From NCBI RefSeq assembly GCF_014518425.1, contig NZ_JACVCU010000003.1, positions 372,001 to 436,000 on the forward strand: a DNA stretch of 64,000 nt, read 5' to 3'. A program made the translations under genes and the position numbers. The notes below the pieces were generated by a model. That model saw nothing but the letters and a program-made list of their open reading frames with translations, did not search any database and was not told the DNA's origin. Below, piece by piece: positions 15,562 to 41,244 of the stretch. How positions within the stretch are numbered: position 1 is the stretch's first letter; each line of letters starts with the position of its first letter. The DNA is from Terrabacter sp. MAHUQ-38. GTDB lineage: Bacteria; Actinomycetota; Actinomycetes; Actinomycetales; Dermatophilaceae.

Positions 15562-15623
15562 GGTGTGTACCCGGGTACTTCTCCCCTGTCGGTGCACTCA
15601 CTGCGCCGGGGAGAGAGGCGACG

Positions 15624-18830: not shown

Positions 18831-18862
18831 CGGCACACCCGGCGCGGCGGAAGGGTGTGCCG
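18831..18862 (+). terminator. Hairpin terminator after ABC operon
   Basis: CGGCACACCC (18831-18840) pairs perfectly with 18853-18862 around a 12-base loop, starting directly after the permease stop codon. Confidence 0.65.
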
Positions 18863-18908
18863 CCGGGCCAGGCCCCGCGGAATACGCCTCCTCAGACAGT
18901 CGCTTCCG

Positions 18909-23724: not shown

Positions 23725-23884
23725 GGTCTCCTCCAGGGTTCCGGCCGCGTGTCTGCGGGCATCCTCGCAGGCGCTTTGAGCAGATGTCCAAGAGCTCGTC
23801 GAACCTGTGTGGCACCTGTCCGGTGCTCCCCCGTCGCCTCGGCGCGTAGGTTCGCCGCCAAGCACCCCGCCCGGAGGAGACACC

Positions 23885-24811
23885 ATGCTCGGATCCACGC
23901 TGCTGACGGCCTCTCGAAGCCCGCGCGTACGCCGCCTCGTCACGAGCGCGCCCGGCTCTCGGCCCCTGGTGGAGCGCTTCGTCGTCGGGGAGACCACGGC
24001 CGAGGCCCTCGACGCGACGCGCGTGCTCACCGGGAGCGGCCTGGCGGTGACCCTCGACCATCTCGGCGAGGACACGCTGGACGTGGCCCAGGCCCGCGCC
24101 ACCCGTCAGGTGTACGTCACGTTGCTCGGCGGCCTGGCCGAGCTCGGGCTGGCTGACCGCGCCGAGGTCTCGCTCAAGCTGTCAGCGGTCGGCCAGGCGC
24201 TGCCGCGCGACGGTCACGACCTCGCCCTCGAGAACGCCCGCGCCGTCGCCGCCGCCGCCGAACAGGCGGGAACCACGGTGACCCTCGACATGGAGGACCA
24301 CACGACCGTCGACTCCACCCTCGCCATCCTCCGCGAGCTGCGGGTCGACTTCCCCGGCACGGGAGCGGTGCTGCAGTCCTGCCTGTACCGCACAGAGGCG
24401 GACTGCCGTGACCTGGCCCATTCGGGCTCCAGGGTCCGTCTCGTGAAGGGCGCCTACGCCGAGCCGCCGTCGGTGGCGTACCCCGCCAAGTCGGACGTCG
24501 ACCTCGCCTACGTCCGCTGCCTGAAGATCCTCATGGCCGGCGACGGCTATCCCATGGTCGCCAGCCACGACCCGCGGATGATCGAGCTGGCCGGCGTGCT
24601 GGCCGAGCGGAACGGACGCGCATCCGGCAGCTATGAGTACCAGATGCTGCACGGCATCCGCACCGGCGAGCAGCGCCGACTCGCCGCCGCCGGGGAGCGG
24701 GTCCGGGTGTACGTGCCGTACGGCGCCGACTGGTACGGCTACTTCATGCGCCGTCTGGCCGAGCGTCCGGCCAACGTCGGCTTCTTCCTCCGCTCGCTCT
24801 TCACGCGCTGA
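23885..24811 (+). CDS. putB: Proline dehydrogenase, monofunctional
   Basis: 308 aa FAD-dependent enzyme oxidising L-proline to 1-pyrroline-5-carboxylate at the membrane. Family blocks are present: EVSLKLSAVG, VTLDMEDHTTVDSTL, AVLQSCLYRTEADC, RLVKGAYAEPPSVAYP, and the C-terminal YEYQMLHGIRTGEQRRLA and RVYVPYGADWYGYFMRRLAERPAN, the last containing the proline-binding RR. A GGAGGAGA ribosome site precedes ATG 23885. Followed 43 bp later by P5C dehydrogenase; together they convert proline to glutamate. Confidence 0.95.
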   Translation: MLGSTLLTASRSPRVRRLVTSAPGSRPLVERFVVGETTAEALDATRVLTGSGLAVTLDHLGEDTLDVAQARATRQVYVTLLGGLAELGLADRAEVSLKLSAVGQALPRDGHDLALENARAVAAAAEQAGTTVTLDMEDHTTVDSTLAILRELRVDFPGTGAVLQSCLYRTEADCRDLAHSGSRVRLVKGAYAEPPSVAYPAKSDVDLAYVRCLKILMAGDGYPMVASHDPRMIELAGVLAERNGRASGSYEYQMLHGIRTGEQRRLAAAGERVRVYVPYGADWYGYFMRRLAERPANVGFFLRSLFTR

Positions 24812-24854
24812 GCCCACTGCCCTCCCCGCACCCCTGACCACCGAAAGGACCCCC

Positions 24855-26483
24855 ATGGATGCCGTCACCCAGGTGCCCGTTCCCGCGAACGAGCCGATCA
24901 ACGACTTCGAGCCCGGAAGTGCCGCTCGCGCCCGGCTCGAGCTGGCCCTCAAGGAGCAGGCCAGCCGCCACGTCGAGCTGACCGCCACGATCGGAGGCGA
25001 GCAGCGCCACGGCGGCGGCCCCGAGATCGCGGTGGTGCAACCGCACGACCACAGCCAGCGGCTCGGCACCCTGCGCGGCGCGACCCACGACGATGCCCAG
25101 GCCGCGATCGCCGCCGCCCGCGACGCCGCCCCCGCCTGGCAGGCCATGAGCTTCGACGACCGGGCGGCGATCCTGCTCAAGGCCGCCGAGCTGCTGTCGG
25201 GCCCCTGGCGCGACACCCTCAACGCGGCGACGATGCTCGGGCAGAGCAAGACCGCCGTGCAGGCCGAGATCGACTCGGCGTGCGAGCTCATCGACTTCTG
25301 GCGTTTCAACGTCGCCTTCGCCCGGCAGATCCTCGCCGAGCAGCCGGCGGCCAACGCGCCCGGCGTGTGGAACCGGCTGGACCACCGCCCACTGGAGGGG
25401 TTCGTCTACGCCGTCACGCCGTTCAACTTCACCGCGATCGCGGGCAACCTGCCCACGGCTCCGGCACTCATGGGCAACACCGTGGTCTGGAAGCCGGCCC
25501 CGACCCAGCAGCTTGCGGCGCACCACACGATGCGGCTCCTGGAGGAGGCTGGCCTGCCACCGGGGGTCATCAACATGCTGCCCGGTGACGGTTTGGCGGT
25601 CTCCGAGGTGACACTCGCGGACCCCGCCCTTGCCGGCATCCACTTCACCGGCTCCACCCCCACCTTCCAGCGCCTGTGGCGCACGGTCGGTGAGAACGTC
25701 GCCGGGTACCGCTCCTACCCGCGGATCGTCGGTGAGACCGGCGGCAAGGACTTCGTGCTGGCGCACCCGTCGGCCGATCCGGCCGTCGTGCGGACCGCCC
25801 TGCTGCGCGGCGCGTTCGAGTACCAGGGACAGAAGTGCTCGGCAGCGTCGCGCGCGTACGTCGCCCGCAGCGTCTGGGAGCGGATGCGTGACGACCTCGT
25901 CGCCGAGACCGAGGCCCTGGCGGTGGGCGATGTCACCGACCTCGGCAACTTCATGGGCGCGGTGATCGACGAGCGTGCGTTCGCGAAGCACCGCGCCGCG
26001 ATCGACCGCGCCCACGCCGACCCCACCATCACCGTGCTGGCCGGGGGCACCTACGACGACTCCGTCGGCTACTTCGTGAGGCCGACCATCCTGGGGTGCA
26101 CCGACCCCGACAACGAGGTGTTCACCACCGAGTACTTCGGTCCGATCCTCGCGGTCCACGTCTACGACGACGCCGACTTCGAAGGGGTCGTCCACGCGAT
26201 GGAGTCGGCCTCCGCGTACGGCCTGACCGGTGCTGTCATCGCGCAGGACCGCGCGGCGATCGCCTACGCCACCAAGGCCCTTCGGTTCGCGGCCGGCAAC
26301 TTCTACGTCAATGACAAGCCCACCGGCGCGGTCGTCGGTCAGCAACCCTTCGGCGGCGCGCGGGGGTCGGGCACGAACGACAAGGCCGGTTCGGCCCAGA
26401 ACCTGATGCGGTGGACGTCGACCCGCGTCATCAAGGAGACGTTCGTGCCGGCCACCGCCCACCACTACCCGCACATGGGGTGA
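24855..26483 (+). CDS. pruA: 1-pyrroline-5-carboxylate dehydrogenase
   Basis: 542 aa aldehyde dehydrogenase of the P5CDH group, producing glutamate from glutamate semialdehyde with NAD+. Key blocks: FNFTAIAGNLPTAPALMGNT, the general-base Glu in GETGGKDFVLAHP, the catalytic Cys in GQKCSAASRAY, and YFGPILAVHVYDD. The C-terminal VVGQQPFGGARGSGTNDKAG is typical. AAAGGA precedes ATG 24855. Same transcript as putB. Confidence 0.95.
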   Translation: MDAVTQVPVPANEPINDFEPGSAARARLELALKEQASRHVELTATIGGEQRHGGGPEIAVVQPHDHSQRLGTLRGATHDDAQAAIAAARDAAPAWQAMSFDDRAAILLKAAELLSGPWRDTLNAATMLGQSKTAVQAEIDSACELIDFWRFNVAFARQILAEQPAANAPGVWNRLDHRPLEGFVYAVTPFNFTAIAGNLPTAPALMGNTVVWKPAPTQQLAAHHTMRLLEEAGLPPGVINMLPGDGLAVSEVTLADPALAGIHFTGSTPTFQRLWRTVGENVAGYRSYPRIVGETGGKDFVLAHPSADPAVVRTALLRGAFEYQGQKCSAASRAYVARSVWERMRDDLVAETEALAVGDVTDLGNFMGAVIDERAFAKHRAAIDRAHADPTITVLAGGTYDDSVGYFVRPTILGCTDPDNEVFTTEYFGPILAVHVYDDADFEGVVHAMESASAYGLTGAVIAQDRAAIAYATKALRFAAGNFYVNDKPTGAVVGQQPFGGARGSGTNDKAGSAQNLMRWTSTRVIKETFVPATAHHYPHMG

Positions 26484-28024: not shown

Positions 28025-30931
28025 TCAGGGGGATGTACCTGCAGAGACCGGATCCGAGGGAAGCGCCGAGGCCAGCAGCTCGGCGAGGTGGAGGGCCTTC
28101 ACGTCCGCGAGGTCGTCGAGCTGGGTCCGGCACGAGAACCCGTCGGCGAGGACCACTGCATGCGGTTGCTTGCGCACGGCGGGGAGCAGATGCTGTTCGG
28201 CCACGGCGACGGAGACCTCGTAGTGCCCCTTCTCGACCCCGAAGTTCCCGGCGAGCCCGCAGCATCCGGACAGCGCGGTGACGGTGGCGTTCGCGCGCGC
28301 CAGCAGGGCCTTGTCGACGTCCCAACCCATGACAGCGTGCTGGTGGCAGTGCGGCTGGGCGATGACGTCGACTCCTCCCAGGTCCGGGGGCGTCCAGCCC
28401 GACCGGGTCAGCAGCTCGCTCAGCGTCACGGTCGCTGCGGCGACCCGGCGGGCGTCATCGGTGCCCAGCAGCTCGACGGCATCGGAACGCAGCACCGCGG
28501 TGCACGACGGCTCCAGCCCGACGATCGGCACACCGGCCGCCGCGTGCTCTGCCAGGGAGGCCACCGTCCTGGCCAGGAGCTTCTTCGCCGCGTCGAGCTG
28601 CCCGGTCGTGATCCAGGTCAGGCCGCAGCAGTGCGACCGGCTCACGAGCTCGGCGCGGTAGCCCGCGTCGGCGAGGACACGGACGGCAGCGTGCGCTGCA
28701 CCGGGTGAGAAGCTCTCGGTGAAGGTGTCGACGAAGAGGATCGCCGGTGCGAGGTCAGCGCGCGCCGTGGCGGCGTGCGTGCGGCGGAAGGTGCGCGTCG
28801 CGAAGGTCGGGAGGTTGCGACGCGGGTCGACGCCGGCCGCACTGAGCGCCACACGGGACAGGCCCGGTGCCCGCATCAGCGCGTTGACCACTCGAGGGGC
28901 ACGGGAGGCGATCCTCGACCAGCGGGGCAGCCAGCCCAGCGAGTAGTGCGAGACCGGGCGCAGCCGGCCCTTGTACGTCTGGTGCAGCACCTCGGACTTG
29001 TAGGTGGCCATGTCGACACCGGTCGGGCAGTCCGACGCGCAGCCCTTGCAGGCGAGGCACAGGTCGAGGGTGTCGTGCACGGCCTTGGAGGCCCAGCCGT
29101 CGGTGACGAAGGTCCCGTTGACCATCTCCTGCAGGACGCGGGCCCGACCGCGGGTCGAGTCCTTCTCGTTGCGGGTGGCGACGTAGGAGGGGCACATCAC
29201 GCCCTGGTCGTTGTCGGCGCGGCACTTGCCGACCCCGGTGCACCGGTGCACGGCCTCACTGAAGTCGCCGGAGTCGTGCGGATAGGCGAAGGCGAGCTGT
29301 CGCCGCAACGGCGGCGCCTGCAGGACCCGGACCGCCTCCGTCACCGGCGGCGGGTCGATGATGACGCCGGGGTTCAGCACCGCGTCCGGGTCGAAGACCC
29401 GCTTGACGCCGGCGAAGAGCTCGAGCGCCTGGGGCGAGTACATCAGCGGCAGGAACTGGCTCCGGGCGCGACCGTCGCCGTGCTCGCCGGACAGGGAGCC
29501 GCCGTACTTCGCGACGAGCTGGGCCGCCGCGGTCAGGAACTGCTCGAGGACGACGGCGCCGTCCGGCCGGTCCAGGGGGAAGTCGAGGCGCACGTGCATG
29601 CACCCGTCGCCGAAGTGCCCGAACGGGAATCCCGCCAGCTGGTGGGCCTGCAGCAGGTCCTCGAAGTCGCGCAGGTACGCGCCGAGCCGGGCTGGTGGGA
29701 CCGCGGCATCCTCCCAGCCGGCGTGTGCCGGCCGGTTCGCGGTGCTGCGCCCGGACAACCCGGCGCCGTCGGCGCGGATCTGCCACAACGCGTTCGCCTC
29801 CTGCGCGTCGAGGACCACGCGGGCTTCGACGCAGGGGATGGAGGCGCTCAACCGGACGGCCTTGGCCTCGCACTCGGCGGCCGTGTCACCGGCGACCTCG
29901 ATGAACAGCCACGCGCGCCCACCGGGGAGCGGCGGGACAGCGGAAGGCCCACGACGCGCCCGGACCACGTCCACGATCCGCGCGTCGAGCCCCTCGCAGG
30001 CCGTCGGCCCGTGTTCCATGACGTCCAGGACGACGTCCGCGGCGTCCGGCATGGTGTCGAACCCGAGCACGACGAGGGTGCGGTACCTGGGCGCCGCGAC
30101 GAGGTTGACGCTCGCTTCCGTCACGACCGCGAGCGAGCCCTCGCTGCCGACGAGGAAGCGGGTCACGTCGAAGCCGTTCTCCGGCAGCAGGTGCTCGAGG
30201 GCGTACCCCGACACCTGCCGCCCGAAGGTGGCGAACTCGGTGCGGATGACGCTGAGGTTGGCGCGCACCAGCTGTTCCAGGTCCGCGAGGAGCCGCCCGG
30301 CGTCACCGTCATGGGCCGCGACGGCCGGCGTCCCGGACTTCAGGGCGAGCGACGCACCGGCAGCGGTCAGGGCCTGCAGCGCGACGACGTTGTCGGAGGT
30401 CCTGCCGTAGCCCAGGCTGCGGCTGCCGCACGCGTTGTTGCCGATCATCCCGCCGATGGTGCAGCGCGACATCGTCGACGGGTCAGGGCCGAACAGCAGC
30501 CCGTGTGCTCGGGCGGCGCGCTGCAGGCTCGCCTGGACGACACCCGGCTCGACCCGGGCCGTGCGGGCGGACGGGTCGATCTCGAGGATGCGGTTCATGT
30601 GGCGTGAGAAGTCCACCACGATGCCTGAGCTGATGGCGTTCCCCGCCACGGACGTGCCGGCGCCGCGGGCGACGAGGGGGATCCCGTGGGCGCGGGCCAC
30701 GGCGAGCGTGGCGCCCACCTCCTCCGCGTCACGAGGACGGACGACAGCCGTCGGGACCAGCCGGTAGAGGGACGCGTCGCTCGAGTAGTGCGCGCGGGAC
30801 GCGTCGTCGGTGAGCACGTCACCCACGCCGGCGCGGGCCAGCGCGTCCGAGACCGCGGCCACCGTCTCCCTGGACGCGGCCGTCGACGTGACGGAGGAAC
30901 CGGGAAGAGTGAGCGGGTCGAGGTCACTCAT
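28025..30931 (-). CDS. FAD and Fe-S D-2-hydroxyglutarate dehydrogenase (YdiJ-type)
   Basis: 968 aa fusion of a GlcD-like FAD oxidase and a GlcF-like Fe-S/CCG half. FAD domain: VARGAGTSVAGNAISSGIV and CTIGGMIGNNACGSRSLGYG (residues about 80-175). Fe-S ligands near residue 563 (CTGVGKC...CPSY) and 624 (CLACKGCASDCPTG). CCG motifs at about 764 (SHCCGL) and 890 (GCCGLAGNFG). YdiJ-like enzymes oxidise D-2-hydroxyglutarate to 2-oxoglutarate (established in Pseudomonas and E. coli relatives); D-lactate is the main alternative substrate. The nearby hglS gene makes D-2-hydroxyglutarate, which decides for that substrate here. Confidence 0.82.
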   Translation of the reverse strand: MSDLDPLTLPGSSVTSTAASRETVAAVSDALARAGVGDVLTDDASRAHYSSDASLYRLVPTAVVRPRDAEEVGATLAVARAHGIPLVARGAGTSVAGNAISSGIVVDFSRHMNRILEIDPSARTARVEPGVVQASLQRAARAHGLLFGPDPSTMSRCTIGGMIGNNACGSRSLGYGRTSDNVVALQALTAAGASLALKSGTPAVAAHDGDAGRLLADLEQLVRANLSVIRTEFATFGRQVSGYALEHLLPENGFDVTRFLVGSEGSLAVVTEASVNLVAAPRYRTLVVLGFDTMPDAADVVLDVMEHGPTACEGLDARIVDVVRARRGPSAVPPLPGGRAWLFIEVAGDTAAECEAKAVRLSASIPCVEARVVLDAQEANALWQIRADGAGLSGRSTANRPAHAGWEDAAVPPARLGAYLRDFEDLLQAHQLAGFPFGHFGDGCMHVRLDFPLDRPDGAVVLEQFLTAAAQLVAKYGGSLSGEHGDGRARSQFLPLMYSPQALELFAGVKRVFDPDAVLNPGVIIDPPPVTEAVRVLQAPPLRRQLAFAYPHDSGDFSEAVHRCTGVGKCRADNDQGVMCPSYVATRNEKDSTRGRARVLQEMVNGTFVTDGWASKAVHDTLDLCLACKGCASDCPTGVDMATYKSEVLHQTYKGRLRPVSHYSLGWLPRWSRIASRAPRVVNALMRAPGLSRVALSAAGVDPRRNLPTFATRTFRRTHAATARADLAPAILFVDTFTESFSPGAAHAAVRVLADAGYRAELVSRSHCCGLTWITTGQLDAAKKLLARTVASLAEHAAAGVPIVGLEPSCTAVLRSDAVELLGTDDARRVAAATVTLSELLTRSGWTPPDLGGVDVIAQPHCHQHAVMGWDVDKALLARANATVTALSGCCGLAGNFGVEKGHYEVSVAVAEQHLLPAVRKQPHAVVLADGFSCRTQLDDLADVKALHLAELLASALPSDPVSAGTSP

Positions 30932-31047
30932 GGCCGCGGCATACGTGTGCTGCCTGGCACGATCGGCGCGCCTCTTGTCGGTGGGCGATGGTGTTCATCG
31001 TTCGTCCTCGGGGTCGCATCGCGGCGACCAGCACGTGCGGCGGTCGT

Positions 31048-31086
31048 CGACAGGATGGGGAGGCCAGTGTCCTCCCCATCCTGTCG
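31048..31086 (-). terminator. Hairpin terminator after aldehyde dehydrogenase
   Basis: Arms 31048-31063 and 31071-31086 form a perfect 16-bp stem with a 7-base loop, immediately after the stop codon of the aldehyde dehydrogenase gene (minus strand). It separates that transcript from the dehydrogenase gene at 28025. Confidence 0.85.
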
Positions 31087-31088
31087 TC

Positions 31089-32624
31089 TCAGACCGTGAA
31101 GTTCACACCCTGGGCAAGGGGCAGCTCGCCGGAGTAGTTGACGGTGTTGGTCGATCGTCGCATGTACGCCTGCCAGGCATCAGACCCGGACTCGCGGCCG
31201 CCGCCGGTCTCCTTCTCACCGCCGAACGCGCCACCGATCTCGGCACCCGACGTGCCGATGTTGACGTTGACGATGCCGCAGTCGGACCCCTCCGCAGACA
31301 GGAACCTCTCGGCCTCTGCCTGGTCGCTGGTGAAGATGCTCGACGAGAGGCCCTGCGGGACATCATTGTTCAGCGCGATCGCCTCCTCGAGGGTCTCGTA
31401 GGGCAGGACGTAGAGCAGGGGCGCGAAGGTCTCCTGCGTCACCACCGCTGTCTGGGAGTCGATCCGCACGATGGCCGGTGTGACGTAGTACGCGTCGGGG
31501 GCGACGTCCTGCAGGGCGCGGTCGCCGCCGGCGACGAGCTTGCCACCCTCCTCCGCTGCCTGGGCGATGGCCTTCTGCATGGCCTCGTACGCACCGGCGT
31601 GGATGAGCGGACCCACGAGCGTTCCCTCACTCATCGGGTTGCCGATCGGCAGCCGGGCGTAGGCCGAGACGAGCCGGTCGGTCAGCGCGTCGATCACGGA
31701 GGTGTGCGCGATGACCCGGCGCATCGTGGTGCACCGCTGGCCCGCGGTCCCGGCAGCGGAGAACACGATGCCCCGGACTGTCAGGTCCAGATCTGCGGTC
31801 GGGCTCACGACGGCGGCGTTGTTGCCGCCGAGCTCGAGCAACGAGCGCCCGAAGCGGTCCGCCACCCGAGGCCCGACCGCCCTGCCCATCCGGGTGGAGC
31901 CGGTTGCCGAGAGGAGGGCGACACCGGGGTGGTCGACGAGTGCCCGGCCGACGTCGGCGCCGCCGACGAGCACCTGGGACAGGTCGGCCGGCGCGCCGAC
32001 CTCCGCGATGGCCCGAGCGAGGATGGCGTTGCTGGCCAGGGCCGTCAGCGGCGCGAGCTCGGACGGCTTCCAGATGACGGGGTCACCGCAGACCAGCGCG
32101 ATGGCCGTGTTCCACGACCAGACGGCTGCCGGGAAGTTGAACGCGGAGATGACCCCCACGACACCGAGCGGGTGCCAGTTCTCCATCAGCCGGTGGCCGG
32201 GCCGCTCGGAGACCATCGTCCTGCCGTACAGCTGTCGCGACAGGCCGACGGCGAAGTCGCAGATGTCGATCATCTCCTGGACCTCACCGAGCGCCTCGGA
32301 GGTGATCTTGCCGACCTCGAGGCTGATCAGGGTGCCCAGGTCCTGCTTGTGCTCGGCGAGCAGCTCACCGAGGCGCTTGACCAGTGCGCCGCGAGCGGGT
32401 GCGGGGACGGTCCGCCAGGCCAGGAAGGCCGCCCCCGCTCGGACCACGGCCTCGTCGACGGCGCCACCGTCGACCCACCGCACCGAGGACAGCGGCAGGC
32501 CGTTGACCGGGGACGGGGTCACGGCGTCGCCGCTGATCGCGTCGAGGTCGACGCCGCAGCGGCGTGCCGTCTCCGCGGCCAGGTCGGCGAGGGCGGTCGT
32601 GTCGGTGAGCTGTTGCGTGCTCAT
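31089..32624 (-). CDS. Aminoadipate-semialdehyde/piperideine-6-carboxylate dehydrogenase (ALDH7-like)
   Basis: 511 aa. Residue blocks are those of ALDH7/AmaB enzymes rather than general ALDHs: VISAFNFPAAVWSWNTAIAL, the Glu in LLELGGNNAAVVSP, the catalytic Cys in GTAGQRCTTMRRV, and the end INIGTSGAEIGGAFGGEKETGG-like segment (VNIGTSGAEIGGAFGGEKE). It would oxidise 2-aminoadipate 6-semialdehyde (in equilibrium with piperideine-6-carboxylate) to 2-aminoadipate with NAD+. AAAGGAG precedes ATG 32624. Preceded at 70 bp by the FAD amine oxidase, same strand. Confidence 0.88.
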   Translation of the reverse strand: MSTQQLTDTTALADLAAETARRCGVDLDAISGDAVTPSPVNGLPLSSVRWVDGGAVDEAVVRAGAAFLAWRTVPAPARGALVKRLGELLAEHKQDLGTLISLEVGKITSEALGEVQEMIDICDFAVGLSRQLYGRTMVSERPGHRLMENWHPLGVVGVISAFNFPAAVWSWNTAIALVCGDPVIWKPSELAPLTALASNAILARAIAEVGAPADLSQVLVGGADVGRALVDHPGVALLSATGSTRMGRAVGPRVADRFGRSLLELGGNNAAVVSPTADLDLTVRGIVFSAAGTAGQRCTTMRRVIAHTSVIDALTDRLVSAYARLPIGNPMSEGTLVGPLIHAGAYEAMQKAIAQAAEEGGKLVAGGDRALQDVAPDAYYVTPAIVRIDSQTAVVTQETFAPLLYVLPYETLEEAIALNNDVPQGLSSSIFTSDQAEAERFLSAEGSDCGIVNVNIGTSGAEIGGAFGGEKETGGGRESGSDAWQAYMRRSTNTVNYSGELPLAQGVNFTV

Positions 32625-32694
32625 GGGCGGTGCTCCTTTGTTCTGGGGTCGGTCGGGTGCGCCGCGGCGCTGGCGGGATCCGCGCCGGCGCGGG

Positions 32695-33858
32695 TCACAC
32701 GATGTTCAGCTCGGGTCGCGTCTCGCTGGCGGCGAAGCGCTCGGCGTGCAGGCTGGAGATGTCGACGACCGGGGGCCTGCCGAGGTAGAGGTCGCGCATC
32801 ACCTCGCCGATGGCCGGGCCCATGAGGAACCCGTGGCCGGAGAACCCGGTGGCGTAGAGGAACCGGGACACCTCGCGGGCTTCTCCGACGAGCGCGTTGT
32901 GGTCCGGTGTCATCTCGTACAGGCCTGCCCAACCGGCGCCCAGACCCGTCTCGGCCAGCGCGGGGACCCGGTGCTCGATGGCGTCGGCGAGTCGCGGCAG
33001 CCAGCCGTCGGACCGCTTCAGCTTGAAACCGGGCGTCTCGTCGGGGTCGGACATGCCCAGCAGCAGTCCCGGACCCTCGCAGTGGAAGTAGAGGCTGGTG
33101 GAGAAGTCGATGGTGAACGGGGTCCTGGGGTCGAGGCCCGGCATGGGCTCGGTGGTGAGGATCTGGCGGCGCATCGGCTCGACCGGCAGGTCCACGCCGA
33201 CCATGTCACCCACCGCCCTGGACCAGGCGCCCGCCGTGCAGATCACCGTGTCCGTGGCGATCGTGCCGCGGTCGGTCACCACTGCGGTGACGGCGCCGCC
33301 CGTCGAGGCGATGTCGCTGACCGTGCAGCCGCGAAGGAGGTGGGCGCCGGCACGACGAGCGGCACCGGCATACCCGAGCACGACCGACTCCGGCGTGCAG
33401 TGACCGTCGGTCGGGGACCACGAAGCGGCGAGGAGCCCCTCGGTGCTGACCAGCGGTGAGAGTGCCTTGGCCTCGTCGACCTCGATCATGCGGCTCGGCA
33501 CGCCGAGCTCGTTCTGCAGGGCAACGTTCCGCTCGAACGCGGCCACGTGGTCCGGCTGGTCGAGCAGGAACAGGTAGCCGACCTGGTGCAGGTCGATCTC
33601 CTGGCCGAACGTCTCCCTGAACGTCTCGAACGTCCTGAGGCTGCGCAGCCCCAGCTCGATGTTCACCCGGTCGGAGAACTGCGCCCGCACTCCTCCGGCC
33701 GCCTTGCACGTCGAGCCGGAGCCGAGCTCGTCCTTCTCGACCAGGACGACGTCGGTGACGCCCGCGCGTGCCAGGTGGTACGCGGTGGACACGCCCATGA
33801 CACCGCCGCCGATGATGACGACGGACGCGTGGCTCGGGAACTCCGGGCGCTGCGCCAT
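32695..33858 (-). CDS. FAD-dependent amine oxidase, sarcosine-oxidase-beta-like (candidate pipecolate oxidase)
   Basis: 387 aa DAO-superfamily enzyme. FAD motif VVIIGGGVMGVSTAYHLA (residues 14-31), then GSGSTCKAAGGVRAQFSDRVN typical of heterotetrameric sarcosine oxidase beta relatives, and a C-terminal YEMTPDHNALVG and ATGFSGHGFLMGPAIGE. Substrates in the family include sarcosine, proline, dimethylglycine and pipecolate. The directly downstream ALDH7-like gene consumes the product of pipecolate oxidation, so pipecolate is favoured by context (inference). ATG 33858 has GAGG upstream; an upstream in-frame extension is not credible. Confidence 0.75.
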   Translation of the reverse strand: MAQRPEFPSHASVVIIGGGVMGVSTAYHLARAGVTDVVLVEKDELGSGSTCKAAGGVRAQFSDRVNIELGLRSLRTFETFRETFGQEIDLHQVGYLFLLDQPDHVAAFERNVALQNELGVPSRMIEVDEAKALSPLVSTEGLLAASWSPTDGHCTPESVVLGYAGAARRAGAHLLRGCTVSDIASTGGAVTAVVTDRGTIATDTVICTAGAWSRAVGDMVGVDLPVEPMRRQILTTEPMPGLDPRTPFTIDFSTSLYFHCEGPGLLLGMSDPDETPGFKLKRSDGWLPRLADAIEHRVPALAETGLGAGWAGLYEMTPDHNALVGEAREVSRFLYATGFSGHGFLMGPAIGEVMRDLYLGRPPVVDISSLHAERFAASETRPELNIV

Positions 33859-33984
33859 GGGGGGCCTCGATTCGTCTGGCGTCGTGAGGGGCGGGCTGGA
33901 GCGAAGGCGGTGGTCCCGTTCCGGCGGGGTGCCGGCCCTGCGCGTCCGACGGGCTCTCTCGCCCCATCGTCCGGGCATCGCATG

Positions 33985-34034
33985 CTTCACGACAAGCGAA
34001 CCTTTCTGGGCTTTGATGTTTAGAATCCGTGAAG
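33985..34034. promoter_or_regulatory. Divergent promoter region with CTTCACG inverted repeat
   Basis: CTTCACG (33985-33991) and CGTGAAG (34028-34034) form an inverted repeat 36 bases apart in the 203-bp gap between the amine oxidase and the LysR gene. A -10-like TAGAAT (34021-34026) sits beside the right arm. The layout suits a LysR-controlled divergent promoter; binding is unproven. Confidence 0.4.
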
Positions 34035-34061
34035 TCCCGTCAGCGTCGGAGAGGGTTGCAC

Positions 34062-35006
34062 GTGATCGCGTCCTCGCGGTTGAACCTCACGCAGCTCGCC
34101 ACCCTGCGCGAGCTCGTCCGCAGGGGGACGCTGGCTGCGGCGGCCGAGCACCTCGGATACACCCCGGGCGCCGTCTCGCAGCACATCTCCTCGCTGGAGC
34201 AGGCACTGGGCGTGCCCCTCGTGCAGCGCTCTGGGCGACAGCTCGTCCTCACGGACGCCGGACGGATCATGGCCGACTACGCCAGCCGGCTGCTGTCACT
34301 GGAGGCTGAGGCGATCGCCGTCACGAGGTCCGTCGAGGGCGGTGCGTCCGGGCCTCTGGTCGTCGGCACGTGGGGCAGCACCGCCGTGGGCCTGCTGGCC
34401 CCGATCGTGGAACGCATGGCGTCCGAGTACCCCGACGTCGTCGTGTCGTCGCGGGAGGTCGACGTGGACGAGGCGTCCGGCTCGGTGCGCCACGGCGACG
34501 TCGACATCGCGTTCGGCCTCGACTACGCCGACGCGCCGATGCGACGCCAGCCGGGCCTGTCCGTCGTCGAGCTGCACCACGAGACGTTCGTGGTCGCACT
34601 GGCCTCGACGAGCGAGACGTCGGGGCGTCGCCGGAAGGTGGCCACCGCCGAGGAGCTGGCTGCCCTGAGCTGGATCCTCGCACCGGAGTCCAGCCAGTTC
34701 GGGCGGGCGGTGCGGGCGGGCTTCCGCCGCCGCGGGTTCGAGCCCCGCGTGCTGCACGAGGTCACCGACACGGGTGCCTCGCTGCAGCTCGCGGCCTCCG
34801 GGCTGGGAGCGACGGTCGTGACGGACCTCATGCGCCGGCTCAACCCCAGCCTCGAGCTGGCGACGCTGGAGATGGCCGACCCCCTGACCCGTCAGATCGT
34901 GCTCATCACCCGTGGCGGATCGAGGCCGCGAGAGCCCGTCAGGGTGTTCGTCGAGGTGGCCCAGGACCTTGTGGCCGAGATGCTCGGTCCCGAGGCTCGC
35001 GCCTGA
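34062..35006 (+). CDS. LysR-family regulator of the amine oxidase/ALDH operon
   Basis: 314 aa from the GTG at 34062, chosen because GGAGAGGG lies 6 bp upstream; an in-frame GTG at 34029 would start inside the probable promoter. Helix-turn-helix at residues about 18-37 (GTLAAAAEHLGYTPGAVSQH), then the effector domain (GPLVVGTWGSTAVGLLAPIV). Divergent from the amine oxidase gene, so it probably controls that operon and itself. Confidence 0.9.
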   Translation: MIASSRLNLTQLATLRELVRRGTLAAAAEHLGYTPGAVSQHISSLEQALGVPLVQRSGRQLVLTDAGRIMADYASRLLSLEAEAIAVTRSVEGGASGPLVVGTWGSTAVGLLAPIVERMASEYPDVVVSSREVDVDEASGSVRHGDVDIAFGLDYADAPMRRQPGLSVVELHHETFVVALASTSETSGRRRKVATAEELAALSWILAPESSQFGRAVRAGFRRRGFEPRVLHEVTDTGASLQLAASGLGATVVTDLMRRLNPSLELATLEMADPLTRQIVLITRGGSRPREPVRVFVEVAQDLVAEMLGPEARA

Positions 35007-35046
35007 GACTGCGGCGACTGACCTCGCGACGACCGCAGGGCTCGGG

Positions 35047-36501
35047 CTAGGGCGAGATCGTGCGCCCGAGCACTGCCTCTGCAGCGCTCAGCGACGCCGC
35101 CGACTCCTGCGCGTAGATGTCCTCCGGCACGTTCACCTCTTGGCCCAGGACGTCTTCCATCCAGGACAGATCACGTTCGGCACCGCCGTGCTCCGCGTCC
35201 ACGGCGCCGCGATCCGTGAGGTTCGACGCGAAGATGCCCGCGGCTGACCGGGGCAGGAAGTCCTCGTAGACGATCGGTTCGGGACGCAGCACGTCGGTCG
35301 CGACCAGGCCCGCGACCGTGCCTCGTCCGAGAGCGGCCACCTGCTCTGGGGCGGCCGTGCCCCCGGCGACCGCGTCGTCGACGGTGAAGGCGAAGAATCC
35401 CAGGCCCTGCGTGCACAGCTCTCGTTCGGTCGCCGGGAACCCCTGCGCCCACACCTCGGGGGCGATGTCGGCCCGGCTCAGCTCCGGGTTCGCGGCGACC
35501 CGGCGGTCGGCCTCGGCCGTCACCGCGTCGAAGCGGTCGCGCCCGGCGGGCGTCAGCGCGACCCCCCGGGCCTCGACCTCGCCGAACCGCACGCGCAGCG
35601 CGCCCTCGGTCACGCTGCCGTCCGGGTGACGGAACCTGCGGGGCTCGGACAGCGCCCGGAACGACGTCTGGCGCAGGAGCACATCGGGGCCGTCCCACCG
35701 AGGCGGCCCCTGGATCTCGTCGATCATCTCGACCCCTCGCGCCTGCATCGAGGCGTAGAGGTCGTCGATGTCGAGGACGCGTGGGGTGAGGTGGTTGATG
35801 TGGGTGGTCGTGACTCCCCCGATGTCGGCGGCCACTCCGGAGACCCGTTCCAGCTCGGCGTACCACGTGCGGTCGACCGGCTCGGGCGACAGCGCGAACG
35901 CGGCCGTCGCCAGGTCCAGGTAGCGGTCCGCGTCGGCGGACGACAGCTCGCCGTGGGCGACGGCGCGGTCGGCCAGCGCGAGCAGCTCGGGGGGGAACAG
36001 CTCTCGGGCCTCGATGAAGCGCTTGAGCCTGCCCTCGAGATCGACGTCGAAGAACCGGCGGTCCTCCGGGACGAGGACGGAGGTGAACACCCTGAACGGG
36101 TTCACGGCGAGCTCGGCCCGGTCAAGGGGACGGAACGCCGTGGACACCACCGGGATCGGCGCCGGAGCCGCGTCGCGCAGGTCGTAGAACCCGCACGGGA
36201 ACATGCCGAGGGCGCCGAACACCCGAGAGACCTGTTGGAGCTCGCGCGGCGACCCGACGCGGATCGCTCCGTGGCGTTCGGCGGTTACCCGCTCCATGCT
36301 GCCGAGCCGCGCGGCGTCGGCGCCGCGGCGGGACATGACCCGCTGGTTCACCTCCTGCGACACCGTGACCAGCGTGGTGTAGGCCGGCACCTCGCTGCCG
36401 TACAGCGACGACAGGCGGGCCGCGAACCTGGCGCGCAGGTCGGTGCTGCTGACGGTCGTGGCGCTGCGCGCCTGCGGTCCGACTGCGTTCGGGCTCTTCA
36501 T
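35047..36501 (-). CDS. hglS: 2-oxoadipate dioxygenase/decarboxylase HglS (DUF1338)
   Basis: 484 aa Fe(II) enzyme converting 2-oxoadipate to D-2-hydroxyglutarate. The metal and substrate residues described for the Pseudomonas enzyme are visible: His77 in AERHGAIR with Arg81 four residues on, a second His at about 236 in THINHLTPRVLD, and the FGEVEARGVALTPAGRDRFD block carrying the Glu ligand. ATG 36501 is chosen because GGAAGG lies 8 bp before it; a GTG at 36510 overlaps the previous stop. Only 5 bp separate it from the amino-acid dehydrogenase gene, so they are one transcript. Confidence 0.9.
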   Translation of the reverse strand: MKSPNAVGPQARSATTVSSTDLRARFAARLSSLYGSEVPAYTTLVTVSQEVNQRVMSRRGADAARLGSMERVTAERHGAIRVGSPRELQQVSRVFGALGMFPCGFYDLRDAAPAPIPVVSTAFRPLDRAELAVNPFRVFTSVLVPEDRRFFDVDLEGRLKRFIEARELFPPELLALADRAVAHGELSSADADRYLDLATAAFALSPEPVDRTWYAELERVSGVAADIGGVTTTHINHLTPRVLDIDDLYASMQARGVEMIDEIQGPPRWDGPDVLLRQTSFRALSEPRRFRHPDGSVTEGALRVRFGEVEARGVALTPAGRDRFDAVTAEADRRVAANPELSRADIAPEVWAQGFPATERELCTQGLGFFAFTVDDAVAGGTAAPEQVAALGRGTVAGLVATDVLRPEPIVYEDFLPRSAAGIFASNLTDRGAVDAEHGGAERDLSWMEDVLGQEVNVPEDIYAQESAASLSAAEAVLGRTISP

Positions 36502-36506
36502 GGACG

Positions 36507-37652
36507 TCACCTTCCGTCGACCTGGCCCCGGAGCCGCATCGCGGCGCGCACGCGTTCCTGCGCGATCTCCCGGGCCGTGGCGTGAGTGGTCAGGTCGCGG
36601 GCGCGGGCCTCGGTCACGACCGTGACGGTGTTCTGCCGCAGCTTGGCCGAGATCATCGGGAAGACGTCGTCGGGGTCGACGGTGAAGGGTGAGTACCTCG
36701 CATCCATCGAGTGGGCGGCAGCCACGATGCCGCCGGCGTTCGCGACGAAGTCGGGCACGACAGTGACGCCCCGGCGGTGCAGCACGTCGAGCGCGTCAGG
36801 GGTCGTCGGCAGGTTGGCGCCCTCGACGACCAGCCGGGCGGTCGTCCTGAGTGCCAGGTCCCTGTCGATGACGTCCTCCCGGGCCGCCGGGATGAGGATC
36901 TGGGCATCGGCGGCGAGCGCGGCAGCAGCGGCCACGGCACCGCCGTACTCGACGACGCAGTCGTCACCGGCCTGCTGGCGCAGGTCCACGAGCTTGCCGA
37001 TGTCGATGCCGCCTGCATCGACGACAGCGCCGCGGGAGGTCGACACGGCCGTGACCACGGCGCCGAGCTCGTCGAGCCTCTCGGCCGCGGCCTGACCAAC
37101 GGCACCGAAGCCCTGGATGGCGACCGTCGCCCCCCGGATCGGCAGCGAGATCGCGGACGCTGCGGCATCCGTGGCCTCGGCGACCCCGAAGCCCGTGACG
37201 CCGAGCTCGTCGTAGGGCAGGCCGCCCAGGACCCGCGGCAGGCCCACGGCGGCGCCGCGGTCGCCGAGCTCGTCGACGAAGATCGCGGCGTCGGACTCGG
37301 TCAGCCCCATGTCGAGGCCGAAGACGTACTCGGTGGGCACCTCGTTCGAGAGGGCTCGCGCGAACGCCCGGAGGATCTCCTCCTTGTTCGGTGCGGTCGG
37401 GTCGCCGAGGATGCCGGCCTTCGCGCCTCCATGGAAGAGGTCGACCCCCGCCCACTTCCACGTCATCGTCCGAGCCAGCCGTGCGACCTCCGGAACGCTG
37501 AGGTCCGGGCTCATCCGGGTGCCGCCCTTGCCGACACCGCGAGCAGTGTTGTCGATGACGAGGACGCCGCGCAGCCCCGACCTGCGGTCGGAAACGCATA
37601 CGACCTTCTCGGGCCCCCACTCGTCGATGAGCTGGAGGGTGTCGACCTGCAT
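36507..37652 (-). CDS. Glu/Leu/Phe/Val dehydrogenase-family enzyme (candidate 2-aminoadipate dehydrogenase)
   Basis: 381 aa NAD(P)-dependent amino-acid dehydrogenase. N-terminal catalytic domain with GVGKGGTRMSPDLS and KWAGVDLFHGGAKAGILGD, Rossmann domain from about residue 175 (GATVAIQGFGAVGQAAAERL), and AARE, VVEGANLPTTPDAL and VPDFVANAGGI typical of the family. AAGGAG before ATG 37652. It is the first gene of an operon with hglS, whose substrate 2-oxoadipate is the deamination product of 2-aminoadipate. That makes 2-aminoadipate a likely substrate; glutamate is the default alternative. Confidence 0.85.
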   Translation of the reverse strand: MQVDTLQLIDEWGPEKVVCVSDRRSGLRGVLVIDNTARGVGKGGTRMSPDLSVPEVARLARTMTWKWAGVDLFHGGAKAGILGDPTAPNKEEILRAFARALSNEVPTEYVFGLDMGLTESDAAIFVDELGDRGAAVGLPRVLGGLPYDELGVTGFGVAEATDAAASAISLPIRGATVAIQGFGAVGQAAAERLDELGAVVTAVSTSRGAVVDAGGIDIGKLVDLRQQAGDDCVVEYGGAVAAAAALAADAQILIPAAREDVIDRDLALRTTARLVVEGANLPTTPDALDVLHRRGVTVVPDFVANAGGIVAAAHSMDARYSPFTVDPDDVFPMISAKLRQNTVTVVTEARARDLTTHATAREIAQERVRAAMRLRGQVDGR

Positions 37653-37740
37653 GCCGTTCTCCTTCGTTCGTCCCCGTCCAGCCTGCCGCGGCACGGGACC
37701 CTCCGGAAGGTGCTGCAGCCCTCGCCGTTCTGGATGCCCG

Positions 37741-37759
37741 GTAAGCATCTCTGGTGCTC
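37741..37759. promoter_or_regulatory. Putative LysR operator (copy 2)
   Basis: GTAAGCATCTCTGGTGCTC, with the inverted repeat AGCAT-N5-GTGCT (one mismatch). It lies between the divergent amino-acid dehydrogenase (start 37652) and LysR (start 37877) genes, where a LysR autoregulatory site is expected, and matches the permease-promoter element at 22363 at 16 of 19 bases. Confidence 0.65.
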
Positions 37760-37876
37760 GCAGAGACGACCGCCGACTATCCTCGGCGGTGCACGCGCCG
37801 TTGGTCGTCGCCGAGCTGGTCCTCGACCCGTCGAACACGAGGTGGCCACTGCGACACGGAGGGATCAGGACTCGTA

Positions 37877-38806
37877 ATGCTCAACCCGGTGCACCTGCTG
37901 ACCCTTACGACAGTGGTCAGGTGCGGGTCCTTCGCCGATGCCGCACGCCAGCTCGGCTACACGCCGTCGGCCGTCTCGCAACAGATCTCGACGCTCGAAC
38001 GCGGCCTTCGGGTGCAGCTGTTCGAGCGCGACGCACGCAGCATCCGGCCCACGCCCGCGGCGGAGTTCATCGTCGCGAACTGCGGCGCCGCGTTGGGTTC
38101 GCTGCGCACTCTCGAGGACGACGTCAACCTGCTGCTCGGGGGCGTCATAGGACGCCTCAGGGTGGGCAGCTTCCCCTCGGCGAGCGAGCGGCTCCTGCCT
38201 GCTGCACTGTCGGAGTTCAGGCGTGACAACGAGCGCGTCGAGATCGGTCTGGACGAGGGTGAGTCCCATGAGCTGATGCCGCTGCTGCTGGCTCGCGAGC
38301 TCGACGTGGCGCTCGTCTACCGGTACGCGCTGGTGCCGCGCCCGTGGCCCCGTGGCGTGATGACGCGGCGCCTGCTCACCGAGGACCTCCTGCTCGTCCT
38401 CCCAGCCGATCACCCCCAGGCCGGCCACGACGTGGTCGACGTCTCGAGCCTCGCCGGCGAGACGTGGGTCTCGACGCGCAACGGGACGGCGGCTGCCACG
38501 ATGCTGCGCCAGCTGTGCCGCGGTCACGGGTTCGAACCGTCGGTCTCCTACCGCAGCAACAACTACGGCGTCATCCAGGGCCTGGTGCGCGCCGGTCTGG
38601 GTGTCGCCGTCATCCCGGCGCTCGGTCACCAGCCGCACGACCAGCTGGCGGTCGCCCGAGTGGGCCCCGAGCCGACTCACCGTCACGTGTTCCTGGCGGT
38701 CTCGCCGACTGCACCACCACCACTCGTCAACGCCATCACGACGGCTCTGGAGCAGGCGAGCCGGGATCTGGCCGCGTCGGCCCTCGGCGTCTCGTCGACC
38801 GAGTGA
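37877..38806 (+). CDS. LysR-family regulator of the dehydrogenase/hglS operon
   Basis: 309 aa. Helix-turn-helix at residues about 17-36 (GSFADAARQLGYTPSAVSQQ) and an effector-binding domain (GRLRVGSFPSASERLLPAAL; GLVRAGLGVAVIPALG). Divergent from the amino-acid dehydrogenase, with a shared inverted repeat between. Probably activates that operon in response to a lysine-pathway intermediate (inference). Related to but clearly distinct from the LysR at 34062. Confidence 0.9.
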   Translation: MLNPVHLLTLTTVVRCGSFADAARQLGYTPSAVSQQISTLERGLRVQLFERDARSIRPTPAAEFIVANCGAALGSLRTLEDDVNLLLGGVIGRLRVGSFPSASERLLPAALSEFRRDNERVEIGLDEGESHELMPLLLARELDVALVYRYALVPRPWPRGVMTRRLLTEDLLLVLPADHPQAGHDVVDVSSLAGETWVSTRNGTAAATMLRQLCRGHGFEPSVSYRSNNYGVIQGLVRAGLGVAVIPALGHQPHDQLAVARVGPEPTHRHVFLAVSPTAPPPLVNAITTALEQASRDLAASALGVSSTE

Positions 38807-38994: not shown

Positions 38995-41244
38995 ATGACA
39001 CAAGGCGTGGACGCAGCGGGAACGTCGGGTCCTGTCGGCGTGCCCGCGACTGGTCGCGCCGAAGCAACCAGACGCCACAGCGGCGGCACAGGTGCCACCA
39101 TCATCGAGACCAGCGCCGCCACCAGCACGTCCACCCGTGCCCTTCGGCTCGTCGGCATCGCCGTCGCCTACTACCTCGGGGCCCGGCTCGGCCTCAACCT
39201 GCCCCTCGTCGGCAACGACGTCACACCGCTGTGGCCGCCGACCGGGATCGCCGTGGCCACGCTGCTCGTCGCGGGCCGTTCCTACTGGCCGGCCGTCGCC
39301 GTCGCCGCCCTGGCCGTCAACCTCCCGATCAGTGCGACGCCGCTGGCCGCGGCCGTGACGGCCGTCGGCAACACCCTGGCACCCGTGGTGGCCGTCACCC
39401 TCCTGAACCGGGTCGGTTTCCGCCGCCAGCTCGACCGGCAGCGCGACGCGATGGCGATCGTCTTCCTGGGGGCCCTGGGGAGCATGCTGATCAGTGCCAC
39501 CATCGGCTCGGTCACGCTCGTCGCGTCAGGCGCCATCTCGGTGCAGCAGCTGCCCACGGCGATGGCGGTCTGGTGGACGGGCGACGCGATGGGGGTCCTC
39601 GTCGTCGCGCCCTTCCTGCTCTGCCTGCCGCTGTTCTGGGAGCAGCCGCGCTGGCCGACGGTGCAGTGGGTCGAAGGGGCGGCGATCCTCATGGTGGCGA
39701 CCGGCGTCGTGACGGTGGCCTCGTTGACCGACCTGCCCATCCTCTTCCTCACCCTCCCGGTGGTCGGCTGGGCGGCGTGGCGGCTGCAGCTGCGCGGCGC
39801 CGCTCCGGCGGCTCTCATCGCCTGCCTCGTCGCGACGTGGTCGGCCGCCACGATGTCCGGCCCTTTCGAGGGCATGAGCCTGTTCGCGCAGATGGTCACC
39901 CTCCAGGGCTTCAACGCCTCCGTCGCCCTGACGTCGTTCTTCCTCGCCGCACTCGTGAGCGAGCGCATGGCCGCTGCCGCTGCCCTTTCCGACGCCGCCG
40001 CCGAGCTCGAGGCGCGGGTCGAGCATCGCACCGCGCAGCTGGCTGCCGCCAACACCCGGCTCGTCCAGGAGATCCATGAGCGGTCCGCGGCACAGGAGCT
40101 GCTGGGCCACGAGGAGGCCCGCGCCCAGCGCGAGCACCAGATCGCCGAAACCCTCCAGCGCAGCCTCCTGCCGGACCGCCTCCCCGACGTGCCGGGCGTG
40201 GCCCTCGCCGCGCGCTACGTCCCGGCGACGGCGGACCTCCAGCTCGGCGGCGACTGGTACGACGTCGTCCAGCTTCCCGACGGACTCATCGGCCTCGCCA
40301 TCGGTGACGTCGCCGGGCACGGGCTCCAGGCGGCGGCGACCATGGTCCAGGTCCGGATGGCCCTGCGGGCCTATGCCCTCCAGGACCCGTCACCCCCGCA
40401 GGTCATGCTCGGCGTGCACGGGCTCGTCGCACAGCTCCCCGTGCCGGAGATGGTGACGCTGCTCTACCTCGTGTTCGACCCCTCGACGCGCCGCGTTCGC
40501 TGGACGAACGCCGGCCACCCGCCGGCCCTGGTCATCGGCGACGGGGCGGGAGCCTTCCTCACCGGCGGCCTGTCCCCGCCGATCGGTGTCACCGTCGACG
40601 GCGGCTTCACCGAGCAGACCCGCGTCCTCGAGCAGGGCGCGACGCTCCTGCTCTACACGGACGGTCTCGTCGAGCGGAGAGGCGTGTCGATCACCGAGGG
40701 CCTGGACCGGCTCCGCCGTGAGGCGGCCGCCGCTCCTGCCGACGCCGACCTCGAGTCGCTGTGCGACCTGCTTCTCGACACCTTCCTCGTCGAGCACCAC
40801 GTCGAGGACGACGTCGCGATCATCGCCATGCGCCCGGCGGCATCCGTCGACGGCGAGCTGACCCTGCGCCTGCCGGCCGAGGCCCGCAACCTCGTCCAGG
40901 TGCGCGGCGCCCTGCGCCGCTGGCTGCGCGAGAACGGCGTGCCCGAGACCGATGTCAACGAGGTCCTCGTCGCCGCCGGCGAGGCGTGCGCCAACGTGGT
41001 GCAGCACGCCTACAGCGCCCAGGCCGACGCCGGCGACCTCGACGTCGAGGCCCGACTCGGAGACGGTGGGCTCGAGGTTCTCGTGCGCGACCATGGCCAG
41101 TGGCGCCCGGCCGCCGACCGCGGCGGAGGCTGGGGGCTGCAGCTCATGGAGGCGCTGATGGACGGGGTCGATGTCGAGCAGACGCCCGGGGGCACGGAGG
41201 TCCACCTGCACCGCCGCGTCGAGACCGGGGTGTCGCGTGAGTGA
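38995..41244 (+). CDS. MASE1 sensor with SpoIIE phosphatase and HATPase domains
   Basis: 749 aa from ATG 38995 (GTG 38968 is an alternative). Residues about 45-325 are a MASE1-type eight-helix membrane sensor (LGARLGLNLPLVGNDVTPLWPPTGI). A coiled coil (ALSDAAAELEARVEHRTAQL, about 325-380) leads to a PP2C-type SpoIIE/RsbU phosphatase (LGGDWYDVVQLPDG, GDVAGHGLQAA, WTNAGHPPAL, LLYTDGLVERR, EDDVAIIAMR). The end is an RsbW-like HATPase (VAAGEACANVVQHAY, VRDHGQWRP, GWGLQLMEALMDGV). It can both phosphorylate and dephosphorylate partner-switch proteins; the STAS protein encoded next is the obvious partner. Confidence 0.9.
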   Translation: MTQGVDAAGTSGPVGVPATGRAEATRRHSGGTGATIIETSAATSTSTRALRLVGIAVAYYLGARLGLNLPLVGNDVTPLWPPTGIAVATLLVAGRSYWPAVAVAALAVNLPISATPLAAAVTAVGNTLAPVVAVTLLNRVGFRRQLDRQRDAMAIVFLGALGSMLISATIGSVTLVASGAISVQQLPTAMAVWWTGDAMGVLVVAPFLLCLPLFWEQPRWPTVQWVEGAAILMVATGVVTVASLTDLPILFLTLPVVGWAAWRLQLRGAAPAALIACLVATWSAATMSGPFEGMSLFAQMVTLQGFNASVALTSFFLAALVSERMAAAAALSDAAAELEARVEHRTAQLAAANTRLVQEIHERSAAQELLGHEEARAQREHQIAETLQRSLLPDRLPDVPGVALAARYVPATADLQLGGDWYDVVQLPDGLIGLAIGDVAGHGLQAAATMVQVRMALRAYALQDPSPPQVMLGVHGLVAQLPVPEMVTLLYLVFDPSTRRVRWTNAGHPPALVIGDGAGAFLTGGLSPPIGVTVDGGFTEQTRVLEQGATLLLYTDGLVERRGVSITEGLDRLRREAAAAPADADLESLCDLLLDTFLVEHHVEDDVAIIAMRPAASVDGELTLRLPAEARNLVQVRGALRRWLRENGVPETDVNEVLVAAGEACANVVQHAYSAQADAGDLDVEARLGDGGLEVLVRDHGQWRPAADRGGGWGLQLMEALMDGVDVEQTPGGTEVHLHRRVETGVSRE

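Follow-up and report, generated by a model that had tools for sequence, protein, structure and literature searches.

A Putative Gene Cluster from Pipecolate to 2-Oxoglutarate in Terrabacter sp. MAHUQ-38 and a Candidate L-2-Aminoadipate Dehydrogenase

The gene cluster and its predicted route

A stretch of 64,000 nt of Terrabacter sp. MAHUQ-38 (GCF_014518425.1, contig NZ_JACVCU010000003.1, positions 372,001–436,000) was analyzed and is referred to as the window. The source genome comprises 5.16 Mb in 18 contigs. Five enzyme genes were found between 28025 and 37652, all on the minus strand, with open frames and the expected Pfam domains. A gene for a LysR regulator (LysR1) lies among them and a second one (LysR2) lies behind them, both on the plus strand (Table 1). 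An earlier note on this DNA had described five enzymes and two LysR regulators here, and the open reading frame calls and Pfam domains agree. With a probability of roughly 0.6, this 10-kb cluster serves the catabolism of the C6 part of lysine degradation, from pipecolate to 2-oxoglutarate.

Table 1. Features of the putative pipecolate cluster, in window coordinates.
Feature	Coordinates	Strand	Domains or evidence
YdiJ-like FAD/4Fe-4S dehydrogenase, 968 aa	28025..30931	-	Pfam FAD_binding_4, FAD-oxidase_C, Fer4_8, CCG
Inverted repeat directly behind the ALDH7 gene	31048..31086	-	Perfect 16-bp stem, 7-nt loop, no T run
ALDH7-type L-piperideine-6-carboxylate (2-aminoadipate semialdehyde) dehydrogenase, 511 aa	31089..32624	-	Aldedh; NF050084
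FAD-dependent amine oxidase/dehydrogenase, 387 aa from ATG	32695..33858	-	DAO domain
LysR1 regulator gene, divergent from the oxidase gene	34062..35006	+	HTH_1 + LysR_substrate
HglS, 2-oxoadipate dioxygenase/decarboxylase, 484 aa from ATG	35047..36501	-	NF050083; PF07063 (HGLS), 429 bits
ELFV-superfamily amino-acid dehydrogenase, 381 aa from ATG	36507..37652	-	ELFV domains (ELFV_dehydrog)
LysR2 regulator gene, divergent from the ELFV gene	37877..38806	+	HTH_1 + LysR_substrate

The predicted activities of two of the enzymes are supported by family membership. HglS exceeds the cut-off of the curated model NF050083 (676 against 600 bits) and misses that of a second HglS model, NF049974 (359 against 550). 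In an alignment to 6w1g, H70, R74, H226, E294, and S403 of Pseudomonas putida HglS correspond to H77, R81, H237, E308, and S419 of the window protein, numbered from its ATG, and the position of V402 is occupied by Arg. H70, H226, and E294 are the His/His/Glu metal ligands of the Pseudomonas putida enzyme, and these ligands and the substrate arginine are all present in the window protein. The residues named in the earlier note (His77, Arg81, and a His near 236) proved correct by this alignment to within one residue, His237. PMC7286885 describes the role of Arg74 in binding 2-oxoadipate in Pseudomonas putida HglS and also treats V402 and S403. The ALDH7 protein exceeds the cut-off of the curated piperideine-6-carboxylate (P6C) dehydrogenase model NF050084 (801 against 730 bits). 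Its best solved relative is 6rtr, “Semialdehyde dehydrogenase Pcd” (763 bits).

The five enzymes could form a continuous route. The FAD oxidase would convert L-pipecolate to P6C/2-aminoadipate semialdehyde, from which the ALDH7 enzyme would form L-2-aminoadipate. The ELFV dehydrogenase would then produce 2-oxoadipate by oxidative deamination, releasing ammonia and reduced nicotinamide cofactor without a transamination partner. With O2 and Fe(II), HglS would convert 2-oxoadipate to D-2-hydroxyglutarate and CO2, and the YdiJ-like FAD/FeS enzyme would oxidize D-2-hydroxyglutarate to 2-oxoglutarate. Gene linkage and residues suggest the oxidase, ELFV, and YdiJ-like steps.

The earlier note had proposed the same five steps in the same order, and that reading appears mostly right. 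Gene linkage, the two curated family matches, and a swap of the pathway’s tail in relatives speak for it; the substrate of the oxidase may be pipecolate or saccharopine. Two family likenesses that it drew were too strong. The oxidase reaches 57 bits with the AmaA (L-pipecolate oxidase) model NF050086, which has a cut-off of 600, and the best NCBIfam model of the last enzyme, NF049975 (YdiJ), gives 493 bits against a cut-off of 1350. The likeness to AmaA and YdiJ is a functional analogy at most.

Gene neighborhoods in related genomes

HglS is rare, being found in 4/198 genomes at the phylum level and 6/99 at the family level, own genome included. There are 17 other HglS loci, nine from one search and three and five from two further searches. 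These were chosen by HglS and hence are not counted as evidence for linkage to HglS. Within the stretches read, several of which end at a contig end, ALDH7 was found in 13 loci, the oxidase in seven, ELFV in six, the YdiJ-like gene in five, and L-lysine 6-aminotransferase (LAT) in three. The complete set of five window enzymes is present in L028 and L029 and also in L043, a locus found through ELFV. These genes keep company in several genera, which is more than chance would give. An absence of co-occurrence, which the earlier note had held to speak against its route, is not what this neighborhood check found.

The neighborhoods found through ELFV provide a stronger test, since these loci were picked without regard to HglS. 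The ELFV query (P0006, E ≤ 1e-60) matched 8/394 genomes at the class level and 12/186 at the family level; the own genome and G207 are in both sets. Besides the window, the searches yielded 14 loci that belong to the clade and three diverged ones (L044–L046, 45–46% identical) that were kept as an unlinked comparison. Linkage was counted only on loci returned by the ELFV searches; L028, L029, and L032 were returned by HglS searches too.

A likely 2-oxoadipate-consuming module was found near ELFV in 11 of the 14 loci. HglS is present in four (L028, L029, L032, and L043), a fused E1 2-oxoacid dehydrogenase in seven (L040, L042, L067+L076, L068+L077, L069, L070, and L071), and both in none. The fused E1 consists of E1_dh, Transket_pyr, and Transketolase_C in the two copies scanned, and the remaining copies were assigned by similarity. 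Glutaryl-CoA dehydrogenase (GCDH) is encoded in four of the seven E1 loci (L040, L042, L067, and L071); the copy in L040 matches the solved GCDH 3swo with 601 bits. The loci with neither HglS nor E1 are L041, L066, and L072, whose contigs measure 3.2, 8.6, and 10.2 kb; for the latter two, several kb on one side could be read and contained neither gene. In the genome of L041 (G643), a different short contig (L148) carries the oxidase gene together with HglS.

Eleven of the 14 ELFV loci have both the oxidase and ALDH7 in reach. Among these, the L042 oxidase is spread over two frames, and the contig of L066 ends within ALDH7. L070 is an E1-type cluster whose ALDH7 match ends at residue 140 beside transposase-like genes (14110–17083, judged by eye). 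L072 has ALDH7 without the oxidase, and L032 and L041 (contigs of 6.8 and 3.2 kb) have neither. None of these neighbors was found in any of the three diverged loci, one of which, L044, is on a 3.7-kb contig.

A tree was built from 21 ELFV proteins, comprising 18 linked ones (including L002, L003, and L004, found through HglS) and the unlinked L044–L046. A 100/100 branch separates the 18 linked proteins from the unlinked ones. Nine of the 18 inner branches are starred and six are open; given the starred ones, the HglS or E1 label must have changed at least twice. The oxidase-ALDH7-ELFV core probably makes 2-oxoadipate, because HglS and E1/GCDH, unrelated enzymes for which 2-oxoadipate is the expected common point, accompany the same core. 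The core and GCDH also suggest that E1 acts on 2-oxoadipate.

Some ELFV loci of relatives contain additional genes. A gene for an OYE-type flavoprotein is found in L066–L069 (in L067, the additional genes are in the region 7468–18993); its nearest models are of the mycofactocin and BaiCD types, both below cut-off. L067–L069 have genes that resemble ABC transporters by eye and genes of the OCD family, and in L067 there is in addition a gene that resembles DadA but scores below cut-off. The extra genes of L066–L069 could possibly provide entry for D-lysine or N-methylated pipecolate. The OYE-type gene prompted a look at homostachydrine/N-methylpipecolate as an upstream substrate, and no paper on its catabolism was recognized among the matches listed.

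Putative substrates of the dehydrogenase, the oxidase, and the last enzyme

The ELFV protein scores below the cut-off of every NCBIfam model that it matched. In the residue numbering of glutamate dehydrogenase (GDH), which is used here, K89 holds the side-chain carboxylate of the substrate. K89, K113, K125, and D165 of GDH are kept in all 18 linked proteins. At the K89 position, Lys is present in 18/18 linked proteins and Ile in 3/3 unlinked relatives. All 21 proteins have Ala in place of Ser380 and Gly in place of Ala163, changes that could widen the pocket. The clade fails the combined GDH signature of K89 and Ser380, as the Lys is present and the Ser is replaced by Ala. Since the core probably makes 2-oxoadipate and the ALDH7 enzyme is predicted to make 2-aminoadipate, the ELFV protein is left as the deaminating enzyme. 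Its best reading, as yet unproven, is an L-2-aminoadipate dehydrogenase. The odds appear slightly better than even that L-2-aminoadipate is the dedicated substrate of the lysine-bearing ELFV clade, which so far has no named gene family and would belong to a fixed pathway core whose tail (HglS and the YdiJ-like enzyme, or 2-oxoadipate dehydrogenase and GCDH) changed at least twice. No description of a 2-aminoadipate dehydrogenase or of an actinobacterial HglS cluster was recognized in the open-licence literature among the matches listed.

The YdiJ-like gene is present in seven of the eight loci that have both HglS and ELFV (the window, L002, L003, L004, L028, L029, and L043), is absent on the short contig L032, and occurs in none of the seven E1 loci. 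This distribution fits a D-2-hydroxyglutarate dehydrogenase, in loci that are related by descent and for a protein below its family model. In L006 (4491–8604), a GlcD-like FAD enzyme is encoded between HglS and ALDH7 and is a possible replacement of the YdiJ-like enzyme. Elsewhere in the Terrabacter sp. MAHUQ-38 genome (contig 17, L074, 9455–15137), a YdiJ-like paralogue of about 50% identity is followed by an ALDH-like gene and a LAT-like aminotransferase gene.

The closest solved chain to the oxidase is 1y56_B (223 bits), an L-proline dehydrogenase subunit. Searched alone, the oxidase was found in 45/394 class genomes and in several contexts, so it was rejected as a pathway marker on its own. 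The 44 other genomes are covered by 40 new stretches and by L025, L040, L042, and L043; ALDH7 is present in 11, and one more (L148) has HglS only. A tree of the DAO proteins (n=42) is missing 13 of the 40 new loci (L127, L134, L136, L138, L140, L141, L142, L144, L145, L147, L149, L150, and L153), which were lost to the gene caller or to a 330-aa limit, and also L031 (two aligned pieces) and L042; the neighbors of all of these were judged by tblastn alone. Genes of the OCD/mu-crystallin type, a family that includes ketimine reductases, were found in seven of the 14 ELFV loci. Three OCD proteins were scanned and matched models of piperideine-2-carboxylate reductase, among others, all below cut-off.

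Several observations weigh against the pathway as read here. The Ala and Gly replacements in the ELFV proteins also occur in the unlinked relatives, so they do not separate the two groups, and K89 is common to GDHs, so that GDH activity would remain compatible with the residues. The YdiJ-like gene is in none of 11 HglS loci without ELFV and in none of three further ones (L125, L143, and L148). The oxidase family is broader than the pathway, as 12 of the 44 other class genomes have ALDH7 or HglS beside it, eight a saccharopine-type gene pair, 14 another ALDH, and ten none of these. The eight loci are from genus g6 (L114–L121), where relatives of the oxidase, 66–69% identical, adjoin an AlaDh_PNT_N-type gene and a gene with a saccharopine dehydrogenase C-terminal domain. 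Reduction of piperideine-2-carboxylate by the OCD proteins is a guess, as no scanned OCD protein reached a curated cut-off. The window has no OCD gene, and the one OCD match of the genome is on another contig.

The g6 genus is probably Streptomyces; its genome G171 shares gene order with S. spirodelae. The g6 oxidases are among the closest to the window oxidase and form one clade (100/100, DAO tree). One copy of each gene of the g6 pair was scanned with Pfam, neither hit an NCBIfam model, and the AlaDh_PNT_N-type gene is presumed to encode a saccharopine enzyme. L116 also has LPG-synthase-like and glycosyltransferase-like genes. Among the ten oxidase loci without these partners, L131 has a weaker ALDH match (295 bits). 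Ten of the 14 loci with another ALDH have a recurring, unnamed trio of the oxidase relative, this ALDH, and a thiamine pyrophosphate-dependent decarboxylase-like gene (L127, L130, L133, L141, L144, L145, L147, L149, L150, and L152).

These observations bear on three other explanations. The pathway could be the same and the oxidase be a saccharopine oxidase, converting saccharopine that is made elsewhere to 2-aminoadipate semialdehyde and glutamate. The saccharopine-type gene pair beside close relatives of the oxidase in 8/8 g6 loci favors this, and PMC9854754 describes a fungal FAD saccharopine oxidase. However, the 29 HglS, ELFV, or E1 stretches that were checked contain no match of at least 100 bits to the gene pair, the window contains no match at all, and two saccharopine-type enzymes are already encoded in the g6 loci. 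In addition, half of the ELFV loci carry OCD genes, and the closest solved relative is a proline dehydrogenase subunit. A saccharopine oxidase is judged improbable. P6C as the product of the oxidase is better supported than any substrate, as it fits pipecolate and saccharopine alike; L-pipecolate appears the more likely substrate of the two. Proline or sarcosine was set aside as a less likely task of the oxidase. The window carries separate proline dehydrogenase and ALDH genes (23969–26483), so the oxidase need not serve proline.

It is likewise unlikely that the ELFV protein is a GDH that recycles glutamate from an unlinked 2-aminoadipate aminotransferase. Its best PDB matches are GDHs, it keeps the side-chain lysine of GDH, and it is the single full-length PF00208 match in the Terrabacter sp. 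MAHUQ-38 genome (the large NAD-dependent GDH family was not searched for). However, it fails the GDH equivalog cut-offs that it was scored against, the best model giving 175 bits against 620, and it has Ala for Ser380 and Gly for Ala163. No aminotransferase was found among the called genes of 28025–38806 (the gene-by-gene scan covered this cluster only), and linkage to 2-oxoadipate consumers together with rarity (12/186 family genomes) is unlike a housekeeping gene. A common housekeeping role was rejected for ELFV on its counts of 1/198 phylum, 8/394 class, and 12/186 family genomes, own genome included at E ≤ 1e-60; three of the eight class-level matches are of the diverged, unlinked type. 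Less probable still is a YdiJ-like enzyme for D-lactate or glycolate that sits in the cluster by chance. Its score far below the YdiJ cut-off, its best PDB match (the lactate dehydrogenase subunit 7qh2), its paralogue elsewhere in the genome, and its absence from the 11 HglS loci without ELFV fit such an enzyme. Its presence in 7/8 HglS and ELFV loci against 0/7 E1 loci, across several genera, argues for D-2-hydroxyglutarate, with the limit that these loci are phylogenetically non-independent.

The family-level search lists eight further genomes from the genus, and the ELFV gene was found in none of them. The cluster is therefore patchy in its distribution and may have been acquired.

Gene starts were assigned with a codon-usage gene caller trained on seven genes of the window. 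The likeliest starts are ATG 33858 for the oxidase (not GTG 33990), ATG 36501 for HglS (GTG 36510 is possible), and ATG 37652 for ELFV. The intergenic gaps are 5 nt between HglS and ELFV, 70 nt between the oxidase and ALDH7, and 157 nt between ALDH7 and the YdiJ-like gene. The cluster is likely made up of three transcription units, and the inverted repeat behind ALDH7 is a possible transcript end. A promoter scan and a consensus terminator scan returned zero sites. A LysR1-like gene adjoins the DAO or HglS gene in L004, L005, L007, L025, L028, L029, L042, L043, L143, and L148, and a LysR2-like gene is present in L002, L003, L004, L031, L032, L040, L067, L069, and L070. Beside the cluster (19405–26483) are a Usp gene, an amino-acid permease, a PucR-type regulator, and then the proline dehydrogenase and ALDH genes, a group that is likely for proline catabolism. 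Downstream of LysR2 (39007–43407), a MASE1-SpoIIE-HATPase protein and a sigma-70 region 2/zinc-finger protein are encoded.

Comparison with known routes and meaning

The lysine pathway of Pseudomonas putida uses AmaA, AmaB, an aminotransferase, and YdiJ in addition to HglS. PMC7286885 describes how HglS in this bacterium converts 2-oxoadipate to D-2-hydroxyglutarate, which goes on to 2-oxoglutarate, and reports HglS from Pseudomonas putida and plants. The window cluster would have 2-oxoadipate, HglS, D-2-hydroxyglutarate, and 2-oxoglutarate in common with the D-lysine route of Pseudomonas putida. However, it has an ELFV dehydrogenase where an aminotransferase is expected, its oxidase and last enzyme fall outside the AmaA and YdiJ models, and its genes are all within 10 kb.

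A second arrangement, of mycobacterial type, is found in L009 (Mycolicibacterium) and, in similar order, in L026 and L027. HglS adjoins ALDH7 there, as in the window cluster, but entry is through LAT (TIGR03251, 733 bits in L009; L026 and L027 by similarity to L009), and no oxidase, ELFV, or YdiJ-like gene was found in the stretches read. Entry through LAT was rejected for the window genome, as no LAT scored over the cut-off (best 158 against 520.8 bits). Background on pipecolate and on LAT/Pcd in Streptomyces is given in PMC9854754. In the third arrangement, the 2-oxoadipate dehydrogenase/GCDH route, E1, often with GCDH, joins the same oxidase-ALDH7-ELFV core in relatives, whereas the window has HglS and the YdiJ-like gene in that place. 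The ELFV protein shares its family domains and the catalytic Lys and Asp with glutamate and leucine dehydrogenases, and has the K89-type lysine as in GDH. It differs in forming a separate branch that reaches no curated model and in having Ala for Ser380.

Most of the chemistry is known; the points of interest are the putative L-2-aminoadipate dehydrogenase and a tail that is exchanged between relatives. If the reading is true, a function would be assigned to an unnamed clade of ELFV dehydrogenases, and a 2-aminoadipate dehydrogenase would be useful for assaying and making 2-aminoadipate and 2-oxoadipate. Actinobacteria would gain a transaminase-free path from 2-aminoadipate to 2-oxoadipate, in which the oxygen-dependent (HglS) and CoA-dependent (E1/GCDH) tails would be interchangeable parts.

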